A stretch of 36,827 bases of DNA, from the NCBI GenBank assembly GCA_020247005.1, contig JADCJN010000194.1:1-36827 (forward strand), given 5' to 3'. The stretch is from Silvanigrellales bacterium. GTDB lineage: Bacteria > Bdellovibrionota_B > Oligoflexia > Silvanigrellales > Silvanigrellaceae. This document shows positions 3,869-27,768 of this stretch, piece after piece; positions within the stretch are counted from its first letter, which is position 1, and each line of letters starts with the position of its first letter. A program made the translations under genes and the position numbers. The notes beneath the pieces are model-generated. The model saw only the letters and a program-made list of their open reading frames with translations. It did no database searches and was not told the DNA's origin.

Positions 3869-4591
3869 TCACTTCACGACGGAAACGTCGACGAAGCCTC
3901 GCGTTTGGATTTTGCCCTGCCAGTCGACGCACGTGCCGCTCGGAATTGAGACGTCGTGCATGTCGCCGTAAGTGTCGATGATGGTGACGGGCGTGCCCAC
4001 GGGGAGGTCGGAGCAGAAAGCCGATTGCTTCGAAAGGCCCGAGTAGAGCTTGTTTGGCGAACGGGTTATTTTCTTCGTGCCGCCGCCAGGCCCTGAGCTT
4101 CCCGGTGCGGGGTTCGAGTTGCATTCGCTGCGGTTGTATTGGTAGCCGTACCACGCGTTGTAACCTTGTTCGCGGTACACGCGCAGTGCGCAGTTTGCGT
4201 TCACACCAGGGTCGAGAAGGTCGCCGCCAGAGACGCCACAGGCGTCGCCCCAATAGTAAGTGTTGATTTGGAAAAGGCCGTAGTCGACCGTTCCATTGGT
4301 GTTCGTGTTCGTAGCGCCGGTGTAATAGGAGCTTTCATACTTCGCAATGCAAACCATGACGCCAATGGCGCTTTCGGGGAATCCCGCATTCCGAAGGTAA
4401 TAGGCAACTTCGCTTGGTGAAAGCCGCGTGCCGCCGAGGTCTTCGCGCGCGTCGGTGCTCTTGGCATTGAGGAACTTTGCGTAGGAGTCATTCGCCGTTT
4501 TGTGTGTGGGGCCTCCGCATGCTGCCAGCAACGAGAGTGTGGCAAAAATCGCAAGTGAAGAGCAACCGCGCACAGCGTGCATTTTTATCAT
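3869..4591 (-). CDS. C-type lysozyme (GH22-like) lipoprotein
   Basis: A 240-residue protein. The signal peptide ends in lipobox LLAAC (Cys25), so it is probably anchored to a membrane by lipid. Residues about 55-160 match animal C-type lysozyme in order: CIAKYESSY with Glu86 at the position of hen Glu35, TNTNGTVDYGLFQIN with Asp103 at the position of hen Asp52, then ANCALRVY and NAWYGY. Cys81/Cys157 and Cys118/Cys134 fit two of the four lysozyme disulfides; the N/C-terminal pair is absent. Residues about 175-240 form a separate small domain, perhaps SH3-like, for wall binding (inference). Both catalytic acids are present, so muramidase activity on peptidoglycan is expected. The ATG at 4591 has AGGAG 7 bases upstream; a TTG lies one codon earlier. 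The gene stands alone after an AT-rich 5' region. Confidence 0.9.
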   Translation of the reverse strand: MIKMHAVRGCSSLAIFATLSLLAACGGPTHKTANDSYAKFLNAKSTDAREDLGGTRLSPSEVAYYLRNAGFPESAIGVMVCIAKYESSYYTGATNTNTNGTVDYGLFQINTYYWGDACGVSGGDLLDPGVNANCALRVYREQGYNAWYGYQYNRSECNSNPAPGSSGPGGGTKKITRSPNKLYSGLSKQSAFCSDLPVGTPVTIIDTYGDMHDVSIPSGTCVDWQGKIQTRGFVDVSVVK

Positions 4592-4688
4592 CAAGGGTCT
4601 CCTTTGAAAAATAGAAAAAGATATCGATTCGTCTCAATGAAAAAGACGTCTCGAATGATGGGAACTCTGATGGGCTGGGAATACGGTT

Positions 4689-4724
4689 TTCTCCGACGTG
4701 CGCAGTTGAGTCAACGTCGGAGAA
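4689..4724. promoter_or_regulatory. inverted repeat in the lysozyme 5' region (11-bp arms, 14-nt spacer)
   Basis: TTCTCCGACGT at 4689-4699 and its exact complement at 4714-4724 flank 14 bases. The spacer and right arm also contain an overlapping small palindrome, GTTGAGTCAAC. It lies about 100 bases upstream of the lysozyme ATG. No T-run follows on the lysozyme strand, so an operator or leader structure is more likely than a terminator. Confidence 0.5.
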
Positions 4725-4895
4725 CTGACTCATGAACGAAAGTCTGTTTATTTAAGTTCCAAAAAAATCTCTATTTAAAAGGTTTTTCTATTTCTATTTG
4801 TTACTTTAATTATTGTTGGTTGATATTTCGGATTCGAGAATTGCAGCCAACTTCACAGCTTGACACACGTCGAGAGATCGCTATGGCAGACGCAA

Positions 4896-4924
4896 ATGAG
4901 GCGCTTCAAAATGAAGCGCCGCAT
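4896..4924. terminator. hairpin with 12-bp stem (one mismatch) and 5-nt loop
   Basis: GGCGCTTC at 4900-4907 and GAAGCGCC at 4913-4920 form a perfect 8-bp stem around AAAAT, extended by three more pairs after one mismatch. It could end transcripts coming from the HIT/YceI operon on the minus strand, but neither strand has a clear T-run next to it. Confidence 0.35.
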
Positions 4925-4953
4925 GACTTGGTCTTTTGTGTCAGGCTTTTATG

Positions 4954-5091
4954 AAATGTATTTAATACATTATAAAAAGACGAAAAATAATTCGTTCAGG
5001 TGAGAATACAAAAGAAAGAAGGAAGAAAAGACGGGTGCTCTTCTCGTGTGCGGGTTCTAGTGATGTTCTTTATAATGTATTAAATACATTT
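4954..5091. repeat. 138-bp element bounded by perfect 23-bp inverted repeats
   Basis: The 23 bases at 4954-4976 are the exact reverse complement of 5069-5091. Inside each arm is a palindrome, AATGTATT-N-AATACATT, at 4955-4971 and 5074-5090. The 92 bases between the arms show no gene. Either this is a small non-autonomous mobile element (MITE-like), or the palindromes are a pair of operator sites for a dimeric regulator. No clear target-site duplication is visible. Confidence 0.6.
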
Positions 5092-5114
5092 TAAGGATTT
5101 CAGGCCTGTTGGAC

Positions 5115-26448: not shown

Positions 26449-27768
26449 ATGGCCAGACCGTTGCTCGCCTCCGCGTTCGCGCTTTCCTGGGGGCTCGTAG
26501 CGCCTTTCGCCGCGTCCAGGGCTCTGGCGGTGGACTTCAAAATCGATCTGCCTCCCTTGCCGGACTTCGACGCGGCGGCAGGGGAAGAGCCCAAAGAGCT
26601 GTCCGACGAACTTCAAAATGCCATTGATGCGGCAGCAACGGCAACGTCACAAGGGTCGCAAGGCGTCGGGGCGTCTGAAATTGACGTTCCCCTGAACGAT
26701 TCGCTGGGCTTGGAATCGTCGCCTGCGGCGTCGGAGCCTTCCGCTGTCTCCCATTCTCCTGTTGCGGCCAAGAAGCCCAAGGTCTTCTCGAATCTCTCGC
26801 GCTCAAAAGGGCGCAACTCCCGCGGAAGTGGGAACCCTGCGCAAGAGAGTGTTGTCACCGCGGCCAATGGATTTCCCGTCATGCAGTGCCTCACTTCGAA
26901 CGTGAAATTTTGGGAGCGTGTTTATAGCGAAGTCGATGAGCATCAGATGCTCGTGCACGACAAAGACGATCTTTCGGTGGTGTACGCCGTGGTCAACGTT
27001 CCCCCCATCCATCAGAAGCGCGAACGGCAGACGGCGATGCGCCTTTGGCGCGCGCACTTTGAACAAGTGCTCGGCTCATTGGCCGTGAAGGCGGGTTCAC
27101 CTTCACGCTGGTCGGCGGAAGAGCGCAAGCTCGCCAAGCGGATCCCTGCCGAAAAATTGAACACGGCATGGCTGCGTTCGGCGCCTTCCACCCTGCGATT
27201 TCAAGGCGGCATGAAGACGCGCTTCGAAGGTGGCATCAAACGTTCACTGTCCTACATGCCCAGCATTCATCCTATCATCACCAAAGCCGGACTGCCGTCG
27301 GACATTGTTCATCTTCCGCACGTCGAAAGCAGTTACGTTCCCTATGCGCGCTCGAAAGTGGGGGCCGTGGGGCTTTGGCAAATTATGCCCGAAACCATGC
27401 GTCAGCTCATGGGGAGTTCGGCCATTCACCGCCGCACGGAGGTGGGCATCGCGACCCAGGCTGCCGCCAAGCTCCTGAGACAGAATTATGAAACCACGCG
27501 CAGTTGGCCTTTGGCTCTCACAGCGTATAATCATGGGCTCGCTGGAGTGATGAGGGCGGTGCGTCGCACAGGCAGCAGCGATCTTTGCGACATTATCGAA
27601 CGGTACGAGAGCCCGAGCTTTCGGTTCGCCTCGAGCAATTTCTATGCGCAGTTCCTGGCCGCCAGGGGCCTCGCCCTTCAGCGTTACGAATTTCTGGCCA
27701 ACGAACGCGGTTCGCACAAGGTGCTCAAGGAGGTCTTGGCGAGTCACGTGAAAGAAGGAAGCACATGA
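26449..27768 (+). CDS. membrane-bound/periplasmic lytic transglycosylase (MltD-like)
   Basis: A 439-residue exported protein; signal peptide residues 1-26, cleavage ALA/V. Residues about 27-140 are a low-complexity linker. The SLT domain (about 270-410) has catalytic Glu293 in HVESSYVPYARS, then GAVGLWQIMPETMR, and ALTAYNHGLAGV with SNFYAQFLAA, as in MltD. It cleaves glycan strands of peptidoglycan leaving anhydro-muramyl ends. No LysM domain is present, unlike E. coli MltD. The ATG at 26449 has AAGGAG 6 bases upstream. Its stop overlaps the aminopeptidase start (ATGA). Confidence 0.88.
   Translation: MARPLLASAFALSWGLVAPFAASRALAVDFKIDLPPLPDFDAAAGEEPKELSDELQNAIDAAATATSQGSQGVGASEIDVPLNDSLGLESSPAASEPSAVSHSPVAAKKPKVFSNLSRSKGRNSRGSGNPAQESVVTAANGFPVMQCLTSNVKFWERVYSEVDEHQMLVHDKDDLSVVYAVVNVPPIHQKRERQTAMRLWRAHFEQVLGSLAVKAGSPSRWSAEERKLAKRIPAEKLNTAWLRSAPSTLRFQGGMKTRFEGGIKRSLSYMPSIHPIITKAGLPSDIVHLPHVESSYVPYARSKVGAVGLWQIMPETMRQLMGSSAIHRRTEVGIATQAAAKLLRQNYETTRSWPLALTAYNHGLAGVMRAVRRTGSSDLCDIIERYESPSFRFASSNFYAQFLAARGLALQRYEFLANERGSHKVLKEVLASHVKEGST

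Follow-up and report, generated by a model that had tools for sequence, protein, structure and literature searches.

Why does a bacterium carry a gene for a C-type lysozyme, the textbook antibacterial enzyme of animals, and where did that gene come from? The question is raised by an open reading frame at positions 3869 to 4591 (minus strand) of a 36,827-nucleotide stretch of contig JADCJN010000194.1, which we call the window, meaning that stretch as a whole. It belongs to the genome of a Silvanigrellales bacterium of the class Oligoflexia (GCA_020247005.1; 4.28 Mb, 291 contigs, 92% complete). We observed that the encoded domain is, judged by its sequence, GH22-type (C-type lysozyme), and we conclude that the gene is a member of an old GH22-type family of bacteria. 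On the strength of its sequence features and of the settings in which its relatives occur, we propose that this lysozyme is tethered by a lipid to the inner face of the outer membrane and likely cuts the cell's own peptidoglycan, a reading to which we give a probability of roughly 0.58. The parts of the protein are listed below; P0001 to P0005 are its five nearest relatives among the matches listed.

3869..4591, minus strand: coding sequence of the lysozyme lipoprotein, from the open reading frame and PF00062; 240 aa plus stop
4520..4591, minus strand: predicted signal peptide, residues 1-24, a hydrophobic stretch ahead of the lipobox, by inspection
4517..4528, minus strand: lipobox L22-A23-A24-C25 with Gly at +2, by inspection; P0001-P0005 have a lipobox too
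4091..4420, minus strand: lysozyme domain (C-type, GH22-type) spanning residues ~58-167, from PF00062 and the predicted structure
4334..4336, minus strand: catalytic Glu86 (= hen Glu35), from an alignment with trout lysozyme
4283..4285, minus strand: catalytic Asp103 (= hen Asp52), from the trout alignment
4349..4351, minus strand: Cys81 (= C30), predicted pair with Cys157, from the trout and 360-domain alignments
4121..4123, minus strand: Cys157 (= C115), from the SLT-outgroup and 360-domain alignments
4238..4240, minus strand: Cys118 (= C76), predicted pair with Cys134, from the trout alignment
4190..4192, minus strand: Cys134 (= C94), from the trout alignment
4076..4117, minus strand: Pro/Gly/Ser-rich linker, residues 159-172, from the sequence
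3872..4078, minus strand: C-terminal domain with two cysteines, residues 172-240, SH3b fold predicted, from an AlphaFold2 (AF2) model and conservation in P0001-P0005

The protein scored 53.3 bits against the Pfam family PF00062 (E 4e-14, residues 69-152), well over the curated cut-off of 27, and the gene scored 54 bits at the DNA level; the GH22 assignment made in a preliminary description of this DNA thus stood in a profile search. PF18896 was matched as well (40.1 bits, cut-off 27), PF01464 (SLT, GH23) stayed under its cut-off (13.1 vs 21.3 bits), and none of the NCBIfam profiles came near a cut-off. Silkworm lysozyme was the top match among solved structures, with an E value of 3.8e-18, so the likeness to lysozymes is not due to chance. 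The lysozyme fold was recovered in prediction, the model superposing on C-type lysozymes over residues 50/55-168. In the alignment with trout lysozyme, with residue numbers counted from the printed start of the trout sequence, Glu86 falls on Glu35 and Asp103 on Asp52, which we take to be the catalytic residues of the trout enzyme. This is the pair that the preliminary description had named, and the NTNTNGTVDYGLFQIN core occupies residues 95-110.

Among the closest known proteins are the C-type lysozymes of animals (GH22; hen, silkworm 2rsc/1gd6 and Musca 3cb7/2fbd), which have this domain in common with the window protein. In comparison, the window protein adds a lipoprotein signal and a C-terminal SH3b-like domain, and its middle loop is shorter. 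Only the disulfide positions C30-C115 and C76-C94 are present, two of four as had been described, and the C6-C127 and C64-C80 pairs are missing, so that the classical four-disulfide (8-Cys) set is incomplete. We counted conservation over 360 collected domains, 209 rows of which were labelled neither animal nor 8-10-Cys (a group of cysteine-richer lysozymes treated below). The Glu35 and Asp52 columns were each kept in 207 of these 209 rows, the other 2 rows being gaps in either column; Gln57, Asn59 and Trp108 were each kept in 208, with 1 gap. The rows behind these counts are not independent, since some are duplicates or short phage-like forms and one is probably an insect fragment. That fragment, P0231, is 88% identical to silkworm lysozyme over one third of the query. 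Among the animal rows, the Glu was kept in 108/110 and the Asp in 106/110.

The two parts said to flank the lysozyme domain were likewise found. The signal peptide, by inspection, terminates in LLAAC (residues 21-25), which gives the lipobox, and Gly follows directly. The C-terminal domain has a predicted local distance difference test (pLDDT) score of 86-93 per ten-residue block in the whole-protein model, and it also folds alone in prediction, in an AF2 model of residues 166-240. SH3b domains of wall hydrolases were among the top structural matches. The domain is predicted to have an SH3b fold and is conserved in P0001-P0005; that of P0003 scored 20.1 bits for PF08239, under the cut-off of 27.

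To place the protein among its relatives, we examined the best 120 of 146 relatives from a protein search and the best 120 of 998 from a second profile search. P0001-P0005 are 53-71% identical to the window protein, with a lipobox and the same architecture; their lipobox suggests that they are bacterial, and the named relatives near them are Labilithrix. A crude lipobox pattern matched 93/186 bacterial-type proteins (many of those it missed are fragments or secreted forms), 3/41 of the 8-10-Cys group and 10/108 animal proteins. Within the organism's own phylum, a profile scan found the family in 11 of 58 genomes and in 10 of the 39 more complete ones. The positive genomes are the window's own, all eight of the sister genus (g5), G029 and G023, and genera g2-g4 gave 0/5. 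The G023 protein (L012:1501-1641(+)) is a divergent, lipoprotein-like one with a half-match to PF00062 and an apparent long insert in the domain. The window's genome itself holds a second PF00062 gene (G000:C218, L002:288-710(-)), which encodes an apparently secreted protein of 140 aa without a lipobox; this copy slightly exceeds the PF01464 cut-off (24.8 vs 21.3 bits) and clusters with other bacterial proteins, apart from the window copy, in the 67-row tree described below. A scan of named genomes yielded 13 loci, 12 from Myxococcales, Labilithrix or Polyangiaceae metagenome-assembled genomes (MAGs; two from one isolate) and one from G029 (L023), by strict patterns that missed the Silvanigrellaceae, so that it is no census.

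The family occurs in several other forms. Fluviispira, Pigmentibacter and Silvanigrella, which belong to the same family Silvanigrellaceae, share the four-Cys GH22-type domain of the window protein, but no lipobox was seen in their proteins, which are either apparently secreted (~156 aa) or carry the domain behind an M23 peptidase. In genus g5, the short form is present in 7/8 genomes and the M23 fusion in two (G004 and G013). The fusions lie beside type IV secretion genes in the two cases examined. On a Pigmentibacter ruber plasmid (AP029160.1; fusion at L039:4497-5285), a TrbI-like gene, below cut-off, is followed by the fusion, two small genes and a coupling protein (PF10412, E 1e-52); in G004 (fusion at L040:6805-7560), the three genes upstream of the fusion keep the same order at 38-43% identity to the plasmid, the TrbI-like one again below cut-off. 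A VirB1-like role is possible for the GH22 domain of these fusions. A phage-like contig from a viral collection (IMGVR_UViG_3300027917_000509) has a PF00062 gene (L036:2198-2590(+)) ~2.6 kb before a terminase gene, which makes it a candidate C-type lysozyme endolysin. Matches in the plasmid and phage collections came from a single plasmid record and from one Rhodococcus phage, present as two records; a virion structural protein of Rhodococcus phage Finch (NC_054724.1, 42215-42508) matches the lysozyme domain weakly (35%, E 2e-4). Proteins of this kind already bear database labels ('lysozyme C' at JGI, 'SLT domain' at NCBI). A search of the open-licence literature found no paper describing a bacterial GH22 family, and the relevant passage of one paper (PMC12753073) concerns lysozyme inhibition. 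The lysozyme domain is of a known kind; the bacterial lipoprotein form with SH3b and the breadth of the family appear new.

What might such an enzyme do in its own cell? In E. coli, the Lol sorting rule sends lipoproteins with Gly at +2 to the outer membrane, and the Mlt lytic transglycosylases are outer-membrane lipoproteins. Because the window protein has a lipobox and Gly at +2, its lipid anchor would place the enzyme on the outer membrane, facing the periplasm. As the second catalytic Asp is kept, the enzyme would cut the MurNAc-GlcNAc bond by the retaining mechanism of hen lysozyme and not by the anhydro-forming reaction of lytic transglycosylases. The SH3b domain may hold it on the wall, and the anchor may restrict how far it reaches, as in the Mlt lipoproteins. 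The settings of the relatives examined would also favour the own wall over a prey wall, since those near type IV secretion and phage genes look like own-wall or host-wall jobs.

Several observations weigh against this proposal. The lipoprotein could face outward, and the Gly +2 rule comes from E. coli, not from this genus. The preliminary description had pointed to an Ivy/PliC-like immunity gene as something to look for, and neither Ivy nor MliC was found in the genome by searches that both matched the E. coli control, which leaves self-protection unexplained; PliI gave no match either, in a search in which no control matched. The genome encodes six ordinary SLT enzymes, so that an additional own-wall enzyme is not obviously needed. 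Finally, the C-terminal domain of the window protein matches no wall-binding Pfam family and no SH3 profile, and Foldseek finds its fold weakly (best E 0.056).

The protein might instead be a weapon or a digestive enzyme, displayed on the surface or carried by vesicles, that would break down prey or competitor walls, with its SH3b domain serving to aim it. The lysozyme domain is the classic antibacterial one, different C-terminal parts have been joined to it in different lineages, as in effectors, and 12 of the 13 loci from named genomes, within the limits of that scan, come from Myxococcota, a group with many predators. One paper, in the passages that deal with them, regards certain myxobacterial GH23 lysozymes as 'professional' lysozymes serving predation (PMC12855814). 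We nevertheless consider such a use less likely than the own-wall one, because the lipid anchor has Gly at +2 and two other settings of the family resemble own-wall or host-wall jobs. Retention in all eight genomes of the sister genus looks more like a core function. Nor did a Pfam scan of seven neighbouring genes show a secretion, effector or inhibitor family (it gave HIT, YceI-like and UbiB-like kinase proteins, weak HEAT matches, a sub-cut-off MspA and two proteins without a match). Less probable still is that the lysozyme fold acts as a lytic transglycosylase in effect, making 1,6-anhydro products like the GH23 SLT enzymes. The window protein shares the lysozyme superfamily and the ES motif with SLT and Mlt enzymes and matches PF18896, other branches of the family pass the PF01464 cut-off, and in NCBI the relatives from Fluviispira, Pigmentibacter and Silvanigrella carry the name 'transglycosylase SLT domain-containing protein'. 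However, PF01464 is below cut-off in the window protein, nearly all of the non-independent rows counted above keep the second catalytic Asp, and the four aligned SLT enzymes from this genome show a gap at the stretch before Asp52. One of the genome's six SLT (GH23) enzymes is encoded in the window itself, at 27292-27579(+). DslA of Bdellovibrio, from the same NCBI phylum, is also a lysozyme-superfamily enzyme and has a specialised role in prey exit; unlike the window protein, it is not of the C-type, and the relevant passages put it closest to GH23 and argue for inverting Glu:Glu catalysis (PMC7511926).

The likeness to insect lysozymes would be explained by contamination or by a gene acquired recently from an animal, and the preliminary description had taken the AT-rich context of the gene as a sign of transfer. 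Two features upstream of the coding sequence are relevant here.

4599..4605, minus strand: Shine-Dalgarno-like AAAGGAG, read from the sequence, with 7-base spacing to the ATG at 4591
4592..5114, no strand: AT-rich intergenic stretch, 38% GC, by composition, presumably with the gene's promoter

The AT-richness proved to be that of the intergenic stretch. The gene has 57.4% GC and a GC content at third codon positions (GC3) of 0.70, near the top of the range of 0.59-0.71 spanned by 21 long open reading frames of the window, some of them possibly in the wrong frame, so its composition matches that of its surroundings. The contig holds bacterial genes, the closest relatives share the lipobox and the domain architecture, and animal lysozymes are separate from the window protein in both careful trees (support 100/96 and 100/98). 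On composition, nearest relatives and trees, a recent animal-to-bacterium transfer was rejected. Given nearest relatives that are bacterial by their lipobox, a second copy in the genome and carriage of the family by 11/58 genomes of the phylum, recent acquisition from an animal is very unlikely and the framing as an animal gene was not upheld.

In the two careful trees, animal and 8-10-Cys lysozymes joined on next to the subfamily of the window protein, which lay outside the animal branch. We reduced 354 domains of >=88 residues to 102 at 66% identity (priority rows kept regardless), removed 3 and added 13 8-10-Cys rows to obtain a set of 112; the alignment had ~120 columns, resolution was poor and both careful trees are unrooted. 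In the 67-row tree, the 8-10-Cys group (95/90) joined the animals (97/90), and animals, 8-10-Cys group, window subfamily and P0014 were set apart from 34 other bacterial rows (91/90). In the 112-row tree, animals with the 8-10-Cys rows received 85/100 (bootstrap not settled) and 84/94 with the window group added; the 8-10-Cys rows had no branch of their own and were separate in 12% of 200 bootstrap trees. A quick tree and an SLT-rooted tree placed the animals apart and left the 8-10-Cys group among bacteria, and a grouping of the window group with the 8-10-Cys rows without animals was not rejected (p-AU 0.446 with 67 rows, 0.39 with 112). The placement of the animals is thus unstable. Rooting with an SLT outgroup (4 of the 6 SLT matches of the same genome) put the root among animals on an ingroup-outgroup branch of ~10 changes per column, the pattern expected of long-branch attraction. 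Minimal ancestor deviation (MAD) rooted the two careful trees inside bacteria, and twelve balanced subsamples on the animal branch in 11/12. None of the three attempts was usable, and we therefore claim no direction of transfer. SLT-likeness was dismissed as a hint to the root because it is too weak: at E up to 0.1, PF01464 matched 12/28 animal proteins (best 6e-5) and 8/8 of one bacterial set (best 2e-9), and the window protein has the sub-cut-off score given above.

The 8-10-Cys lysozymes (P0030, P0062, P0092, P0109) are 44-50% identical to the window protein, have the same core and lie near its subfamily in trees. They differ in that all four disulfide positions of the animal enzymes, as judged by eye, are present together with an additional pair, a lipobox is usually absent, and some carry lipocalin or other parts at the N terminus. 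A lipocalin domain is fused to the lysozyme in P0062, P0092, P0105, P0120 and others, probably from microbial eukaryotes. We infer that the 8-10-Cys proteins as a group probably come from microbial eukaryotes, because they mostly lack a lipobox, include lipocalin fusions, and C-type lysozymes are reported from Dictyostelium; there, a lyC2 knock-out is reported to grow defectively on Klebsiella (PMC5890168). A 'Trichophyton violaceum' lysozyme in the collection (P0178) is 65% identical to the silkworm enzyme over the query and comes from a 508-base contig; this fungal record appears to be contaminated with insect sequence.

It is tempting to ask whether the C-type lysozymes of animals, that of hen egg white among them, arose from this bacterial family through transfer to an early eukaryote, with the window subfamily nearest the donor. 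We regard this as a tentative idea, less likely than not. In the parts of a 2026 paper that concern them, animal g-type (GH23) lysozymes are traced to bacteria, and C- and i-type lysozymes are reported to cluster with phage-type GH24 and GH46 (PMC12855814). The large bacterial family described here keeps the catalytic pair and comprises lipoproteins, secreted proteins, M23 fusions and a form on a phage-like contig. Its existence would mean that some bacteria make routine use of an enzyme with which other organisms kill bacteria. If the descent is true, a wall-trimming enzyme, tethered or secreted, of Oligoflexia, Myxococcota and their phages would have become a weapon in eukaryotes. The origin of C-type lysozyme is unsettled, and the bacterial family provides a comparison set that makes the question testable.
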